This document shows positions 18,732-27,148 of a DNA stretch of 36,487 nucleotides, piece by piece (positions within the stretch are counted from its first letter, which is position 1; each line of letters opens with the position of its first letter). The stretch is from Actinomycetes bacterium (lineage in GTDB: Bacteria; Actinomycetota; Acidimicrobiia; Acidimicrobiales; Ilumatobacteraceae). The notes below the pieces were generated by a model. It was not told where the DNA came from. It did no database searches and saw only the letters and a program-made list of their open reading frames with translations. The stretch covers positions 1 through 36,487 of the forward strand of contig BJGB01000002.1 in the NCBI GenBank assembly GCA_014190215.1, in the 5' to 3' direction. The position numbers were made by a program, and so were the translations under genes.

Positions 18732-19403
18732 TCACTGTTCGCTTGGGTACTCAAGATCTTTACTTACTGTAGAGGTTCTGCTGCGGTTTTTGCGAGCGGA
18801 CTGCAGAAAAGAAAGAGCAAATAATCCGCCGACGACGTACCACTGATAATCCTCCATCCATTGGAGAAATGATCTGATTTGATCTTCAAAGGCTTTGCCT
18901 CCCGCCCACATCACCACAAGGCGGATGGCGATACCAGTGGCGAGGAGCGAGGCATATTTGATGGGTGCGATACGGCGATGACCAGCCATCATCCATACCA
19001 AGTTCGACCCACAGAAAAAAATGATCACTAACCAACCAGCGCGGTCCATGGCCTTGGCGAACCAGCGGTAGATCGCCGGCAATTCACCGACCTGCTTTTC
19101 AGTCCATCCGAGGGCGCGATCCCCATACCAGCGGCCTAGAAAAAACAGGACCATCCCAGCAATAAAGACGCGGGTAAAGCCGATCAAGGCAAACGGCAAG
19201 GGATCCATGAAGGGGACAGAGGCGAAAAGATTGCGGTTGCGACTTGAGAGAGCCAAGACCACCGCTGGGCGCTCATCAACCCAGGCGGGCCCAACGTTGC
19301 TACCAAAGGTTCCCACAGCAAAAAGGAATCCCGACGTCAAAAGAATCAACTTTTTTCTGGGTGCAGAGACATTTTCGTCGTGGGGAGATGGGGCTTCGGA
19401 CAT
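18732..19403 (-). CDS. Membrane protein with DedA/VTT-like features
   Basis: A 223-residue protein with about four to five hydrophobic segments. After a first helix (about 19-37) the pattern FIAGMVLFFLGRWYGDRALGW, then AIYRWFAKAMDRAGWLVIIFF and MMAGHRRIAPIKYASLLATGIAIRLVVMWAGG, recalls the DedA/SNARE-associated (VTT) family: a GRxxGxxxxxW segment, an amphipathic reentrant stretch, and a paired helix. The usual conserved RFxPxxR motif is replaced by FFCGSNLVWMMAGH, so the match is distant. DedA proteins act in membrane lipid flipping and homeostasis. The ATG at 19403 has TAGATT eight nt upstream and no ribosome-binding site. Membrane protein is certain, family is tentative. Confidence 0.5.
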   Translation of the reverse strand: MSEAPSPHDENVSAPRKKLILLTSGFLFAVGTFGSNVGPAWVDERPAVVLALSSRNRNLFASVPFMDPLPFALIGFTRVFIAGMVLFFLGRWYGDRALGWTEKQVGELPAIYRWFAKAMDRAGWLVIIFFCGSNLVWMMAGHRRIAPIKYASLLATGIAIRLVVMWAGGKAFEDQIRSFLQWMEDYQWYVVGGLFALSFLQSARKNRSRTSTVSKDLEYPSEQ

Positions 19404-19456
19404 GCTCTGCCAATCTAAGCGAGAGTACGCTCAGAGAGTCACACAAGGGGGAAATT

Positions 19457-21106
19457 ATGTCGGCAGAAATTTCGCAGATTCCAGGATTGATGCAAGAAGT
19501 ACCGCTGAGTATCTTGCATCTTTTTGATCGCGCCGAGCGATATTTCGGGCATAAGACAATCGTCACTGCAACGGGCTCTGGTATCGAACGTACGACCTAC
19601 GCCCAATGGGCCCATCGCACGCGTCAGGTCGGCACGGTTCTCGATCAACTCGGTATCTCCAGCAACGGTCGCGTTGCGACGTTTGCATGGAATACTGCAC
19701 GCCACCTCGAGTTGTACTTCGCCGCGCCGTGTACTGGACGCGTGTTACACACGCTTAACATTCGTTTGTTCCCCGAGCAGTTGACGTACATCGTCAATCA
19801 TGCTCAAGATGAAGTGATTTTTGTTGACAAGTCGTTGCTCGGTTTGCTGGCTCCGTTATTGCCCACATTTACTACCGTCAAACATTTGGTGATTATGGAT
19901 GACGGCAAGGGCGAGATTCCTGCTGATCTGGCTGGTATTGCTTCATATGACTACGAAGAACTACTCGCGAAAGCTGCGCCCGCGCAATTCGTTGAAGTAC
20001 CGGAGAACACTGCCGCCAGTATGTGTTACACAAGTGGCACGACAGGCAATCCCAAGGGCGTGGTGTACACCCATCGCAGCACATTCCTGCACACCATGGC
20101 CACGATGATGACTGACGGTCTGGGCGTGAGCGAGAGTGACAAGATCCTGCCCGTTGTTCCTATGTTTCACGCCAACGCGTGGGGACTGGCCCACGCCGCT
20201 GTTGCATCAGGCGCCGATCTGGTGATGCCCGGTCCCGATTTGTCGGGCCCTGCGGTGGCCAACTTGATCGTCAACGAACGTCCGACTATCGCTGCCGGAG
20301 TGCCAACGATTTGGATGGGCGTTCTACCCGAGTTGAAGGGTCGCGATACTTCAAGTTTGCGAGCCATTCCGTGCGGTGGTTCGGCTGTTCCGCGTGCTCT
20401 TAGTGAGGCCTATCGCTTACAAACTGGACTGCCCATTTTGCAAGCATGGGGCATGACGGAAACGAGCCCGATCGCTGCGGTCTGTCATCTCGACGGTGAT
20501 CAGTTGCTGCTTGATGTCGATGCTCAAGCCGATTTACGAACTCAGGTTGGGCGCATTGTCTTTGGTGTTGAATGTCGCGTTGTTGAACCTGGTACGACGA
20601 TCAGTGTGCCGTGGGATGGAGAGTCCAGCGGCGAACTGCAATGTCGCGGCAACTGGATCGCTTCAACGTATTACAACGATGCGCGAGCGGGAGAGAGTTT
20701 CAGCGAGGATCACTGGTTGCGAACTGGTGATGTGGCCTGCGTTGATGAGCGTGGGCGAATACGTCTACTCGATCGCACCAAAGATCTCATCAAGAGTGGT
20801 GGCGAATGGATTAGTTCAGTCGAACTTGAAAATGAATTGATGGCCCATCCACTCATTCGCGAGGCCGCAGTCATTGGCGTCATGCACCCGCGTTGGAGCG
20901 AGCGACCTTTGGCTTGTGTCGTGCTTGAAGCGGGCGCAACCTTATCCAAGGAAGAGATTCTTGATTTTCTTGGCACCAAAGTCGCCAAGTGGCAGGTTCC
21001 TGATGATGTCGTCTATATCAATGAGGTCCCAAAAACGAGTGTCGGCAAGTTTTCTAAGAAAACTCTTCGGGAACGCTTCGCTGATTACCAATTGCCGACC
21101 GCCTGA
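19457..21106 (+). CDS. AMP-dependent acyl-CoA synthetase (fatty-acid--CoA ligase)
   Basis: A 549-residue ANL-superfamily ligase. The ATP-binding motif YTSGTTGNPKG is at 191-201, followed by PMFHANAWG, the A5-type QAWGMTETSP, the adenylate-binding LRTGDV and RTKDLIKSGGEWISS, and the C-terminal lysine region KTSVGKFSKKTLRERF. These place it with medium/long-chain fatty-acyl-CoA ligases. It activates a carboxylic acid to its CoA thioester for beta-oxidation or lipid synthesis. AAGGGGG at 19445-19451 is a strong ribosome-binding site for the ATG at 19457, so the longer in-frame extension to 19244 is discarded. A possible -10, TACGCT, lies about 30 nt upstream. Confidence 0.93.
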   Translation: MSAEISQIPGLMQEVPLSILHLFDRAERYFGHKTIVTATGSGIERTTYAQWAHRTRQVGTVLDQLGISSNGRVATFAWNTARHLELYFAAPCTGRVLHTLNIRLFPEQLTYIVNHAQDEVIFVDKSLLGLLAPLLPTFTTVKHLVIMDDGKGEIPADLAGIASYDYEELLAKAAPAQFVEVPENTAASMCYTSGTTGNPKGVVYTHRSTFLHTMATMMTDGLGVSESDKILPVVPMFHANAWGLAHAAVASGADLVMPGPDLSGPAVANLIVNERPTIAAGVPTIWMGVLPELKGRDTSSLRAIPCGGSAVPRALSEAYRLQTGLPILQAWGMTETSPIAAVCHLDGDQLLLDVDAQADLRTQVGRIVFGVECRVVEPGTTISVPWDGESSGELQCRGNWIASTYYNDARAGESFSEDHWLRTGDVACVDERGRIRLLDRTKDLIKSGGEWISSVELENELMAHPLIREAAVIGVMHPRWSERPLACVVLEAGATLSKEEILDFLGTKVAKWQVPDDVVYINEVPKTSVGKFSKKTLRERFADYQLPTA

Positions 21107-23031: not shown

Positions 23032-23946
23032 ATGGCCCGACGAACAAGAGCACTCTTCTTCGTCGGGCTTTTGTCATTTGTGGCGGCTTGCACCCACGAA
23101 CATGATGGCGCTGGTGGTCACGTTCATTCAGACATGCCCGTTGATGCAGCGGCAGTGATGGGTCAACCCGATCGGCCTATTGCTGGCCCTCAAGGCGGGG
23201 TCGGACAATTCGTTGTTGAATGTCCGTTTAGTCATGCCTTAAGTGATGATCCGATTGTGTATCCAGGTGATGAGGACGCTTCGCACTTGCACACATTCTT
23301 TGGCAATGTCGCTGCCAATGCTGATTCACAGTTACAAGATCTCCTAGAGCAACCCACGACATGTGAACAGCAACTTGATACGGCTTCGTATTGGGCGCCT
23401 GCATTATTGGAAGAAGGGGAGTTGATCACGCCAGAAAAAAGCGTGGCCTATTATCGTGCAGGCTTGGGTGTCGACCCTCTGAGTGTGACGGCCTTCCCAG
23501 CGGGATTAATGATGATCGCTGGTGATCATATGGCGACCACACCGCAACCAGTTTCGGTGGTGGCTTGGTCCTGTGGCGCAGGGGGACTACGTGAGGAACT
23601 ACCGCCGGTATGTCCACCCACTCGTGGTTTGCGTCTCGATGTCACTTTCCCCGATTGTTGGGACGGAAAGAATCTTGATGTTGCTGGTCATCGAAAGCAC
23701 ATGCATTACTCTTCGGGCGGAAAGTGCCCGAGTTCTCATCCAGTTTCCGTGCCGCAGTTAATCTTCGCGGTGACGTACCCCGTGACTGGTGATGCCTCGC
23801 AACTGCAATTGGCATCAGGCAATTTGATGACTGGTCATGCTGACTTCATCAACGCTTGGGATCAGGAAAAATTGCAGCAGGAAGTTGAATTATGCATTCA
23901 CCGCAACATTGTGTGTGGTGTCACAAGCGGTCGCTCGTCGGGCTAA
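23032..23946 (+). CDS. DUF1996-domain lipoprotein with His-rich N-terminus
   Basis: The 304-residue protein has a signal peptide and lipobox VAAC (Cys20), followed by a short His-rich stretch, THEHDGAGGHVHSDMP, that could bind metal ions. The rest matches DUF1996: QFVVECPFSHALSDDPIV-type entry, SHLHTFFGN, TASYWAPAL, YYRAG, LRLDVTFPDCWDGKNLD, HYSSGGKCPSSHPVSVPQLIF. The domain is best known from fungal and actinobacterial secreted proteins, and its function is unknown. The gene lies 37 nt after the beta-helix gene on the same strand. It ends within CTAA, where its TAA overlaps the TAG of the convergent ABC ATPase gene. Confidence 0.85.
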   Translation: MARRTRALFFVGLLSFVAACTHEHDGAGGHVHSDMPVDAAAVMGQPDRPIAGPQGGVGQFVVECPFSHALSDDPIVYPGDEDASHLHTFFGNVAANADSQLQDLLEQPTTCEQQLDTASYWAPALLEEGELITPEKSVAYYRAGLGVDPLSVTAFPAGLMMIAGDHMATTPQPVSVVAWSCGAGGLREELPPVCPPTRGLRLDVTFPDCWDGKNLDVAGHRKHMHYSSGGKCPSSHPVSVPQLIFAVTYPVTGDASQLQLASGNLMTGHADFINAWDQEKLQQEVELCIHRNIVCGVTSGRSSG

Positions 23947-24689
23947 AGCCGACCCGCCTCAGTCACACGTTGCAAGAATTGCTGTGTCCGTTGGTGGGCG
24001 GGATTGTTGAAAAACTCTGTTGGTCTTGAGCACTCCAAAATTTGGCCTTCGTGTAAGAAGCACACCCGATCAGCAATCTCTTTTGCGAATCCCATCTCAT
24101 GAGTCGCCAGTAACATCGTCATCCCATTGCTCTTCAGTTCGCGTACGACATCCAAAACTTCTCCCACGAGTTCGGGATCAAGAGCCGAAGTGATTTCATC
24201 AAGCAGCATCACCTCTGGGTTCATCGCCAAACTTCGAGCGATAGCGACACGTTGTTGTTGCCCACCCGATAACTGATCGGGATAGCCATCAGCGCGGTCA
24301 CTGAGACCCAAGCGGGCGATCAATTCGCGAGCGTGACTTTCGGATTCCTTTTTGGATTGACCGAGAACTTTGTGCGGAGCGAGGGAAACATTTTGCAGAA
24401 CCGTCATATGGGGGAAGAGATTAAAACTCTGAAACACCATGCCGATTCTTTGGCGCACTGGGTCGGGGTTCAGACCTGGCGCGCTGATATCTACGCCATC
24501 AAGAAAGATCGCCCCATCATCAATGGATTCCAGAAGATTGACGCAGCGCAATAAAGTACTTTTGCCGGAACCTGATGAGCCAATGAAAGCAATAACTTCG
24601 CTTTGGGCAACCTCAATGGAGATCCCCTGAAGAACAGGTCGTGTTCCGAAAGATTTGTGTACATCGTCGAGCAAGATTTTGGGAGTCAT
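23943..24689 (-). CDS. Polar amino acid ABC transporter, ATP-binding protein
   Basis: A 248-residue ATPase of the GlnQ/HisP group. Walker A is GSSGSGKST (37-45), Q-loop FQSFNLFPHMTV, signature LSGGQQQR, Walker B VMLLDE followed by TSALDPELVGEV, and the H-loop LATHEMGFA. The combination, including the ITSALDPE and HEMGFA segments, is typical of amino acid importers. It drives uptake through the permease encoded immediately upstream; its ATG overlaps the stop of that gene by 4 nt (ATGA), a coupled arrangement. Confidence 0.95.
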   Translation of the reverse strand: MTPKILLDDVHKSFGTRPVLQGISIEVAQSEVIAFIGSSGSGKSTLLRCVNLLESIDDGAIFLDGVDISAPGLNPDPVRQRIGMVFQSFNLFPHMTVLQNVSLAPHKVLGQSKKESESHARELIARLGLSDRADGYPDQLSGGQQQRVAIARSLAMNPEVMLLDEITSALDPELVGEVLDVVRELKSNGMTMLLATHEMGFAKEIADRVCFLHEGQILECSRPTEFFNNPAHQRTQQFLQRVTEAGRL

Positions 24690-25564
24690 CGCACTGCCGT
24701 CCCAGATGTACGACGCCGCTCGCGCGACATTAGATGATCAACGAAACGAGTTTCCGGAATCGTCAATAGGAGAAAGATAATGGCTGCTCCGACATAGGGC
24801 GTGAAGTTGGCGTACTTAGATTTATCAATGCCGGCTTGCCGCAGAATTTCAATCGGGCCGATCAAACTGATTAGGGCCACATCTTTTTGCAAACTCACAA
24901 AGTCATTCATTAATGGTGGGATAACGCGTCGAATTGCTTGCGGAATAATGATGTGGCGCAATGTCTGGCTCGTTGACAGACCAAGGGATCGAGCGCCGGC
25001 ACGCTGGCTTTCGTGAATGCTTTCAATGCCAGCGCGAAATACTTCAGAGACGTAGGACGAATAGGCCAAGATCAATGCAACTGAGCCCCACAAATAGGGA
25101 CTATTCCATGGTCGATCCATTCCCAGTCCGGGAATTCCAAAGCCGATCAGCAAGATAGTCAAGATGACTGGGATGCCGCGAAAGATGTCGGTATAGGCAG
25201 CGGCGAAGAGCCGTAAGGGAAAGAGAAGCGGGGAGCGGACGTTGCGGCAAATCGCTAACAACATTCCCAAAACCAAAATACATGGCGCACACCATAAGAA
25301 AATCTGAATATCTTTCACGAAAGCTCGTAACAGTGCAGGAAAGGTTTCGTCAAGAATGGGACCATTAAAAAATGAGCGCTTGACCTTATACCAGCCTGGG
25401 GTCAGGGGAATAAGTACGACTAAAAGTCCGATGACAGCCAAAGATGATGCCAAGGCGATCAGTAAGGAGCGCCTTTTTTGACGCCGTTCAAAAACTTGCC
25501 GCCGTGAAAGCGGTCGCCGAGAGGAATCCTCGCTGAGAGAACTGGTGCCCGAGTGATCGCTCAT
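24686..25564 (-). CDS. Polar amino acid ABC transporter, permease
   Basis: A His/Glu/Gln/Arg-opine-type (HisM/GlnP) permease, about 292 residues from the ATG at 25564. After a basic, Ser-rich cytoplasmic N-terminus of about 30 residues come a first helix (IALASSLAVIGLLVVLIPL) and several more. The permease domain shows AAYTDIFRGIPVILTI, YSSYVSEVFRAGIESIHESQRAGARSLGLS (the EAA loop that contacts the ATPase) and IIPQAIRRVIPPLMNDF. TATGGT seven nt before 25564 fits the leaderless pattern; an alternative ATG at 25576 adds four residues. Only one permease gene is present, so it may form a homodimer. The binding-protein gene lies 48 nt upstream. Confidence 0.92.
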   Translation of the reverse strand: MSDHSGTSSLSEDSSRRPLSRRQVFERRQKRRSLLIALASSLAVIGLLVVLIPLTPGWYKVKRSFFNGPILDETFPALLRAFVKDIQIFLWCAPCILVLGMLLAICRNVRSPLLFPLRLFAAAYTDIFRGIPVILTILLIGFGIPGLGMDRPWNSPYLWGSVALILAYSSYVSEVFRAGIESIHESQRAGARSLGLSTSQTLRHIIIPQAIRRVIPPLMNDFVSLQKDVALISLIGPIEILRQAGIDKSKYANFTPYVGAAIIFLLLTIPETRFVDHLMSRERRRTSGTAVR

Positions 25565-25612
25565 CTCGGGCACCATATCGTTCTTGTGATTGTTGCCAAC
25601 AGTTGCGCTGGG

Positions 25613-26458
25613 TCAGTCAAGAGTGATGACTGGAACGCCAGTGTTATCGCTCAGCCAGGTCTGCTCAATTGTCGCAAGTGCCCCAGAAGCCTTGATGGCG
25701 GCTAAAGCGGTATTCACGCAGGCAACCAAATCGTTATCTTTTTCGAAGACCAAGCCAAAGTCATCTGAGGTGCCACCTGCGGCGGCGGGGAACTGACCGA
25801 CGACCGTCGTACCTTCAATCTCGACATAGGAGATGTAGAGGGCAGTCGGCAAGTCAACAACAATGGCGTCAATTTGCCCTGCTTCAAGAGCGGCCTTTGC
25901 GCCTGCATTATCGTCGTAGACGAAAACTTCGTTGCTCGGCTTGATGACCTCATTGACGAAGTCAAGACTTGTTGTGCCGGCCTGTACGCCGAACTTGGCC
26001 CCAGCCAGATCTCCAATAGTGATTGCACCTTGGGGCACATTTGCAGTCAAGGCCACGATGGCTTGATTGGAGGAATAGTAGGGCTCACTGAAACTGATTG
26101 TTTCAGAGCGCTCAGGGGTGATTGAGTACTGCTGAAGGTTGAAGTCAAAGTTCTTCGCGCCTGGGGCAATGGCCTCATCAAAAGTTGTTCGCACCCACTT
26201 CACGGCATCGCCTTCGTAGCCAAGTTCGGCGGCGACGGCCAGTGCAACGGCGGCTTCAAAACCCTCACCACTTTCTGGGGCATCATTTTCGACCCAAGGG
26301 GAGTAAGCGGGGGATCCAGTTCCGATTGTGAGGACATCTGGGGTGATCGTGGCGCAAGTATCGCCATCTTGAGCAGTTGAGTCTTTATCTTCGCTTCCGC
26401 AAGAGACGAGAGAGACAACGGCGACGGCTAGAGCAGTTGCTGTGAGACGACGAAACAT
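25613..26458 (-). CDS. Polar amino acid ABC transporter, substrate-binding lipoprotein
   Basis: A 281-residue SBP family 3 protein with a lipobox LVSC (Cys20). The mature part has LTIGTGSPAYSPWV, FDFNLQQYSITPERSETISFSEPYY, the hinge-region LAGAKFGVQAGTTS, and IDAIVVDLPTALY, all typical of periplasmic-type amino acid receptors; in Gram-positives it is lipid-anchored outside the membrane. Ligand not predictable, although the family suggests a polar or charged amino acid. GAAGGA six nt before the ATG at 26458 is the ribosome-binding site, so the longer ORF start at 26473 is not used. It is the first gene of a three-gene operon and is divergent from tetR. Confidence 0.93.
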   Translation of the reverse strand: MFRRLTATALAVAVVSLVSCGSEDKDSTAQDGDTCATITPDVLTIGTGSPAYSPWVENDAPESGEGFEAAVALAVAAELGYEGDAVKWVRTTFDEAIAPGAKNFDFNLQQYSITPERSETISFSEPYYSSNQAIVALTANVPQGAITIGDLAGAKFGVQAGTTSLDFVNEVIKPSNEVFVYDDNAGAKAALEAGQIDAIVVDLPTALYISYVEIEGTTVVGQFPAAAGGTSDDFGLVFEKDNDLVACVNTALAAIKASGALATIEQTWLSDNTGVPVITLD

Positions 26459-26476
26459 GGATTTTCCTTCCAATAG

Positions 26477-26499
26477 TGGCTAAACCCTCAGACTAGCCA
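26477..26499. promoter_or_regulatory. Inverted repeat upstream of the ABC binding-protein gene
   Basis: TGGCTA (26477-26482) and TAGCCA (26494-26499) form a perfect 6-bp inverted repeat with an 11-nt spacer, between the divergent ABC operon and tetR. The spacer length equals that of the 26527-26555 repeat but the sequence differs. Possible regulator site; weaker evidence than the tetR operator. Confidence 0.3.
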
Positions 26500-26520
26500 A
26501 ACTTTTACCTTGATTTCAGC

Positions 26521-26555
26521 TTGACAATGAGACACCAGAGGTCTTAGTGTCTCAT
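26521..26555 (+). promoter_or_regulatory. tetR promoter with overlapping perfect 9-bp inverted repeat operator
   Basis: TTGACA (26521-26526), an exact -35 consensus, is followed after 18 nt by TAGTGT (26545-26550), which lies seven nt before the GTG of tetR. ATGAGACAC (26527-26535) and GTGTCTCAT (26547-26555) are perfect inverted copies with an 11-nt spacer, starting right after the -35 and covering the -10. This is the usual layout for a TetR autoregulatory operator. Binding by the adjacent TetR is inference, but the geometry is strong. It may also affect the divergent ABC operon. Confidence 0.7.
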
Positions 26556-26557
26556 AT

Positions 26558-27148
26558 GTGAGCGTTATTGCCAATCTTGGTGCTTCCCTGGAAGATCGAA
26601 TTCTTGACGCCGCTCGTCGATGCGTGGACCGCTGGGGCATCAACAAACTGACTATTGATGATGTGGCGACCGAGGCAGGAGTTTCACGAGCGACTTTGTA
26701 TCGCTTGTTCCCTGGTGGCAAAGACGTGATGTTCGATGCACTGCGGGTGCGCGAACTTGAAGATTTTTTTGAGGGCATGAGCGCCAAACTGACCGAGGTT
26801 GAGTCATTGCTTGATTTCACCGTCAAGGTCTCGGTGTACGCGCTGCATGCAATGCGTGGTGATCAACATTTAGCAATGATGCTGTCCACTGAGGAGGGCA
26901 CGGCCCTGAAGTCCTTGACTGTTGAGGGCTTGCCACGCATTTTGCAAGTCGCCTCGCAGTACATCACTCCTTTAGCGATTGAATTTATTCCAGCTGAGGA
27001 GGCCGACGTCTTCGTGGAGATGTTGGCACGTCTCGTCATCTCTTATTTCTTGGCTCCGAGTGAGCACTTCGATTTGGCTGATCCAGATTCGGCGAGAAAG
27101 TTCTTTGGTCCATTTATCAGCGCTTTGAACGCAGTGGCAGCAGTCTAA
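26558..27148 (+). CDS. TetR/AcrR family transcriptional regulator
   Basis: A 196-residue regulator. Residues about 10-58 form the TetR DNA-binding domain: RILDAARRCVDRWGINKLTIDDVATEAGVSRATLYRLFPGGKDVM shows the helix-turn-helix with the typical G-V-S-x-x-T-x-Y-x-x-F pattern. The C-terminal part is a helical ligand-binding and dimerisation domain without a family I can name. The GTG at 26558 is chosen because TAGTGT lies seven nt upstream and the HTH starts at the right distance. The gene is 44 nt upstream of the diiron protein on the same strand and divergent from the ABC operon, so either could be its target. Confidence 0.92.
   Translation: MSVIANLGASLEDRILDAARRCVDRWGINKLTIDDVATEAGVSRATLYRLFPGGKDVMFDALRVRELEDFFEGMSAKLTEVESLLDFTVKVSVYALHAMRGDQHLAMMLSTEEGTALKSLTVEGLPRILQVASQYITPLAIEFIPAEEADVFVEMLARLVISYFLAPSEHFDLADPDSARKFFGPFISALNAVAAV

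Follow-up and report, generated by a model that had tools for sequence, protein, structure and literature searches.

A predicted TetR operator at a tetR–diiron oxygenase locus in Ilumatobacteraceae and its conservation in relatives

We examined an inverted repeat that lies over the promoter of a tetR gene in a 36,487-nt stretch of Ilumatobacteraceae DNA (hereafter the window). On comparative sequence evidence, the repeat is very probably the operator of the adjacent TetR protein, which would act as an autorepressor of a tetR–diiron oxygenase operon in the mode of AlkX. In the mechanism that we propose, TetR, probably as two dimers on four half-sites, would occupy positions 26520-26554 and so cover the -35 element, the -10 element and the start of a leaderless promoter, blocking RNA polymerase. 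Both tetR and the downstream gene for an AurF-like diiron oxygenase would be repressed together, until a small hydrophobic ligand, by analogy most likely a fatty acid or an acyl-CoA, released the repressor and turned both genes on. That TetR binds the site, that it represses and does not activate, that the two genes share a transcript and that two dimers take part are all what we infer, as is the class of the ligand. As a switch the operator is of an ordinary kind, and it is deeply conserved.

The features of the locus are listed in Table 1. The sequence-only reading had placed a perfect 9-bp inverted repeat right after an exact TTGACA, across the -10 element of tetR and inside a 99-nt region shared with a divergent ABC operon, and all of these particulars were confirmed. 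The repeat, ATGAGACAC-N11-GTGTCTCAT, directly follows TTGACA and covers a -10 hexamer of the TANNNT type, TAGTGT; the intergenic region (26459-26557) runs from the ATG of the divergent solute-binding protein (SBP) gene at 26458 to the GTG of tetR at 26558. It thus overlaps the regulator's own promoter, lying between the -35 element and the start codon, and holds the same position in relatives. TAGTGT agrees with TATAAT at just three of six positions, and a sigma-70 consensus scan reported no promoter in the region upstream of tetR. TANNNT is the -10 pattern of Actinobacteria. Because of the position of the -10 element, transcription would start at or beside the GTG, and the tetR mRNA is therefore probably leaderless. 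An RNA hairpin or terminator is an unlikely function for the repeat, since in the window the start codon comes 3 nt after the right arm, which would leave the site outside the transcript, on its 5' side; a terminator scan of the locus found none.

Table 1. Predicted regulatory elements and genes at the locus, in window coordinates.
Feature	Position	Strand	Details
ABC operon ATPase gene	23943-24689		after permease gene
ABC operon permease gene	24686-25576		after SBP gene
Family-3 solute-binding protein (SBP) gene	25613-26458	-	divergent; first gene of ABC operon
Inferred full operator, 35 bp, four half-sites	26520-26554	.	symmetric about 26537, not 26541; probably two dimers
-35 element TTGACA of tetR promoter	26521-26526	+	from sequence; TTGAC at same position in 125/149 unique sites
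GAC of -35 element, outer-left half-site of inferred operator array	26523-26525		GAC kept in 11/13 diiron-paralogue sites, exact TTGAC in 0/13
Inverted repeat ATGAGACAC-N11-GTGTCTCAT	26527-26555	.	conserved core TGAGAC (26528-26533) and GTCTCA (26549-26554)
Inner-right half-site GTCTTA	26541-26546	.	5/6 match to GTCTCA; pairs with 26528-26533 in a second dyad centred on 26537
-10 element TAGTGT (TANNNT)	26545-26550	+	18 bp from -35; TA in 148/149 unique sites
tetR, 196 aa	26558-27148	+	TetR_N, E 7.2e-12; GTG start, probably leaderless; SRATLYR at residues 43-49
AurF-like ferritin-type diiron protein gene, 376 aa	27193-28323	+	weak AurF match above gathering score

A search of the window with the repeat pattern, allowing up to three mismatches, gave one match against 0.03 expected. 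When the 99-nt region was shuffled 5000 times with dinucleotides preserved, 25 of the shuffles contained a perfect inverted repeat of at least 9 bp with a spacer of at most 20. The whole window, however, contains eight inverted repeats of that size, whereas 40 shuffles gave 3 on average (range 0-7). The repeat by itself is therefore not decisive, and conservation decides.

A TetR orthologue (E ≤ 1e-20) is encoded by 154 of the 221 family genomes and the diiron protein by 176. Scanning the whole fetched locus in 153 of the 154 TetR-bearing genomes, we found the core TGAGAC-N14/15-GTCTCA with at most one mismatch in 152 (exact in 144). The proposal of an autoregulatory operator had been staked on conservation in relatives that share the gene; as a prediction it is supported by this result and by arms that change with the recognition helix, as described below. 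In G027 no core was present in the 89 nt upstream of the TetR residue-1 position, the TetR match lying 116 nt from the contig start; in G072, which was outside the fetched set, the site is about 36 nt from the TetR match. The longer pattern TGAGAC-N7-GTCTTA-N-TGTCTCA, with up to two mismatches, occurs in 131/221 family genomes, and a backwards control gave nine matches. Named loci with a TetR match numbered twenty and included several from Ilumatobacteraceae, Acidimicrobiales or Acidimicrobiia (two of the twenty were weak partial matches from Terriglobales); the named TetR-bearing relatives are all metagenome-assembled genomes.

A scan of 159 loci found the site in 158, 150 of them unique; dropping L041, a wrong-strand row, left 149 sites, 138 with an N15 spacer and 11 with N14. 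Among the 138, L061 belongs to a ferredoxin–P450 operon rather than to a tetR gene. GAGA (26529-26532) and GTCTC (26549-26553) are invariant in all 138. In a stricter check of position, TetR could be aligned in 157/159 loci and the core lay wholly upstream, within 220 nt, in 141; for the remainder of the 157, the alignment overran the core in fifteen and L104 had no core. Of the 141 upstream cores, 138 have an in-frame start codon 1-5 nt beyond their end; L031 and L043 (from one genome) and L044 are the exceptions.

One genus, g6, supplies a case of natural loss. None of its twenty-three genomes is among the 154 TetR-bearing ones (E ≤ 1e-20), though seventeen keep the diiron gene, and the site occurs in a single genome, G231, at a contig end. 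Six g6 loci were fetched: five contain the diiron gene but give no core match, even when one mismatch is allowed, and the sixth, the G231 contig end, has a core and no diiron match. The core thus accompanies the regulator (152/153 loci) and is missing where the regulator is lost (5/6 g6 loci). For G231 (G231:C42:19-45, L103), the exception, either a retained tetR or contamination may account for the site.

Beyond the family, 73 of 298 order-level genomes matched TTGAC-N2-TGAGAC-N11-TA-N-Y-GTCTCA with up to two mismatches, ten of the 73 belonging to the window's own family. We opened ten order-level loci: all had a TetR homologue beside the site, and nine had the diiron gene. Seven of these, from other families (L204, L205, L206, L207, L211, L212, L213), carry a tandem pair of tetR genes that flanks the site, usually with the diiron gene next. 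Twenty of 396 genomes in a phylum sample matched, thirteen from the window's own order. Among the seven others, G522 belongs to the same class and has the same genes; in G595 the 3 kb fetched contain neither gene, and the match looks like chance; and five genomes of other classes have TGTGAC-N15-GTCACA upstream of tetR, followed by a diiron gene that is 44-55% identical. The search behind this last find imposed no symmetry on the arms, and both arms nonetheless changed in step.

In those five genomes the recognition helix reads SRQTxYR, as against SRAT or SRAS where the arms are TGAGAC. In 168 of 185 loci the helix could be read and the dyad was perfect, and in these the pairing held without exception: 158 had TGAGAC with Ala (RAT or RAS) and ten had TGTGAC with Gln. 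The ten represent five genomes, each counted twice, and the 158 also include a few duplicates. A perfect TGTGAC dyad is missing from three further relatives (L252 with SRQT, L255 with SRQS and L253 with SRPT). The switch between Ala and Gln may have arisen just once in evolution, so the 168 loci are strong evidence but not independent. Operator and TetR thus appear, from these alignments, to have changed together in distant relatives, and the symmetric arm changes accompanied by a change of recognition helix in other classes tie the site to the adjacent TetR.

Conservation also reshaped the motif itself. The repeat had been offered as a definition of the regulator's motif, and part of this stood: the core falls in both arms. 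Conservation is confined, however, to 6 bp in each arm (TGAGAC/GTCTCA) and does not extend over the 9 bp of the repeat. The full operator probably comprises an array of four half-sites (26520-26525, 26528-26533, 26541-26546 and 26549-26554) with its centre at 26537, and its two overlapping dyads would probably be bound by two TetR dimers. A match to GTCTCA at five of six positions stands at the inner half-site in 100 of 138 unique N15 sites, and GTC is exact there in 102/138; at the thirteen diiron-paralogue sites described below, nine have the 5/6 match. By eye, the inner GTC is missing in parts of genera g14, g2 and g25 and from many order-level sites. Some genera thus do without the inner half-site, which makes the outer arms the obligatory part. 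In the outer dyad, 21 bp separate the centres of the two hexamers, which exceeds the usual span of one standard TetR dimer. Covariation between column pairs was computed in two registers, and arm variation was too small to be decisive. The highest-scoring pair, 26526/26556 (z 4.4, register A), is not part of the core, and its signal may be due to shared ancestry.

The regulator belongs to the TetR family by its match to PF00440 (45.3 bits against a cut-off of 24), and no NCBIfam equivalog scored above its cut-off with it. Its AlphaFold model has a mean pLDDT of 82, and residues 44-50 form the third helix, the usual recognition helix. For the diiron protein, AurF (PF11583) was matched in 16/16 aligned members; two DEARH motifs are invariant and therefore mark it as a ferritin-like diiron protein. 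Its predicted structure had a mean pLDDT of 40.6 and was left out of the analysis. The gene that follows is MurF-like by eye, and domain matches make the divergent ABC operon a transporter of the polar amino-acid type. An AMP-binding, acyl-CoA ligase-like gene also lies near the locus (window 19244-21106), and in some relatives (L098, L099, L101 and L107) the stretch upstream of the diiron or tetR gene contains, by eye, the end of a coding sequence with a similar C-terminus; this hints at fatty-acid metabolism.

A scan of the genome for the half-site had been suggested as a way to find the regulon, and in the window's own genome it recovered one exact core and no wider regulon, which shows only in relatives. 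In this assembly, which is 80.8% complete, there are one exact core and two places with one mismatch, three matches per strand against four in a reversed control; the 1-mismatch places do not exceed the control, and we therefore do not believe them. The ATGAGACAC/GTGTCTCAT repeat with three mismatches occurs at one further place, on contig C203. Two species of the window's genus, G023 (G023:C69, L095) and G005 (G005:C74, L096), share a 2-mismatch copy of the operator pattern away from tetR.

Relatives carry the core at further oxidase genes. A paralogue of the diiron gene is present in 17 of the 221 family genomes, and the exact core lies at most 160 nt upstream of it in 13 of the 17 (L214-L226); these comprise every one of the thirteen carriers in genera g11 and g19, while the four carriers elsewhere lack it. 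Three more cores (L092, L093 and L061, one each in G255, G256 and G146) precede what by eye is a ferredoxin–P450 operon, the P450 having a Pfam match in G255. Next in G255 and G256 comes a gene for an RPE65-type carotenoid oxygenase (by Pfam in G255), while the G146 locus ends earlier. From these positions, the regulon in relatives seems to centre on oxidases.

Which genes the site controls bears on how the repeat is to be read. The sequence-only reading had set it in a region shared with the ABC operon; the shared region is there, but the gene most likely to be controlled with tetR is the downstream diiron gene. We consider it highly improbable that the site instead serves mainly the divergent operon for the ABC amino-acid transporter and regulates tetR only secondarily. 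It is true that 37 of 59 loci have the SBP gene as divergent neighbour. In the window, a candidate promoter for the ABC operon (CTGAAA, 26519-26514; TAGTCT, 26495-26490), picked out by eye, adjoins the operator, and 69 nt separate the site from the SBP gene. Yet tetR and the site occur without the SBP gene in 20/59 loci (two more gave no TetR match), including L004, whose TetR is 96% identical; the distance from site to SBP gene varies from 33 to 177 nt, whereas the tetR start keeps its close spacing after the core; and in 10 of the 37 loci (L008, L009, L010, L011, L012, L014, L017, L018, L020 and L036) a separate palindrome of the form ~CCCGAC-N7-GTCRGG lies nearer the SBP gene and is possibly the ABC operon's own operator. 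This pattern is absent from the stretch between the SBP gene and tetR in the window. Co-regulation of the ABC operon by the tetR site is possible, particularly in the window with its 69-nt gap.

It is very unlikely that a different, unlinked regulator binds the site and controls the tetR–diiron operon. The presence of the site at unlinked genes in relatives would fit such a regulator, but in genus g6 tetR and the site are both gone, save for the one contig-end case, and a change in the arms goes along with one in the adjacent TetR's recognition helix. As for a chance palindrome on a conserved promoter, the window does hold more inverted repeats of similar size than the shuffle mean, and the conserved TTGAC and TA positions are promoter elements; the invariant GAGA and GTCTC are not promoter consensus, however, and the core persists at diiron-paralogue genes that have no exact TTGAC, so that conservation rules this explanation out almost completely. 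Several points count against an operator for the adjacent TetR as well: part of the conservation is that of the promoter, G027 has no core, the fold scores given below are weak and the inner GTC is lost in some genera. With these weighed, we retain the operator of the adjacent TetR as the best explanation of the repeat.

We are more tentative, and nearly evenly divided, about a broader proposal drawn from the same comparisons: that this is an undescribed regulator–operator pair spread across Acidimicrobiia and other actinobacterial classes, that it governs a family of uncharacterised oxidases, diiron enzymes and locally P450s, from a leaderless promoter that lies entirely within an operator of four half-sites, and that a change between Ala45 and Gln switched its specificity between TGAGAC and TGTGAC. 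For a regulator from a group of largely uncultured Actinomycetota, the analysis supplies a motif, possible target genes and a residue that probably determines specificity. The enzyme is probably important, given that its gene is so widespread in the family, and the operator offers a handle for finding the inducer and hence the substrate of the diiron enzyme. The pairing of Ala or Gln with A or T makes a rule of protein–DNA recognition testable and, if true, would be a natural change of code.

Literature searches on TetR operators, AlkX, AurF and Acidimicrobiia returned no title, among the matches listed, that describes this pair, and the accessible part of PMC9430723 contains nothing on an operator. 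Named TetR equivalogs, among them MftR, Bacillus-type FadR and KstR, resemble the window TetR in the TetR_N region, and all score far below their curated cut-offs; MftR, the mycofactocin regulator, was rejected on this basis (TIGR03968, 34.3 bits against 224.9). The first Foldseek matches to the TetR model were AlkX of Dietzia sp. DQ12-45-1b (PDB 5ydp) and Rv3249c/AlkX of M. tuberculosis (PDB 5d1w), with E values of 1e-5 to 5e-4, 21-24% identity and TM scores of 0.52-0.69. Other TetR structures reach a similar TM (e.g. 2f07_A, 0.67), so the likeness to AlkX, and with it the ligand class, is soft; phmmer aligned the window TetR with Rv3249c over residues 9-186 (E 2.3e-05). In the accessible part of PMC8784404, Dietzia AlkX is described as repressing an alkane hydroxylase operon, with C10-C24 fatty acids as inducers and positive feedback, and as having a long operator consistent with a dimer or a pair of dimers. 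The partners of AlkX are AlkB and rubredoxin, whereas that of the window TetR is an AurF-like diiron protein. By analogy the window TetR would work like AlkX, but it is not established as an AlkX, since the AlkB–rubredoxin context is absent. QacR-type operators are bound by two TetR-family dimers. The array proposed here resembles them in its overlapping dyads, four half-sites and single centre of symmetry, and differs from them in the spacing of the half-sites.
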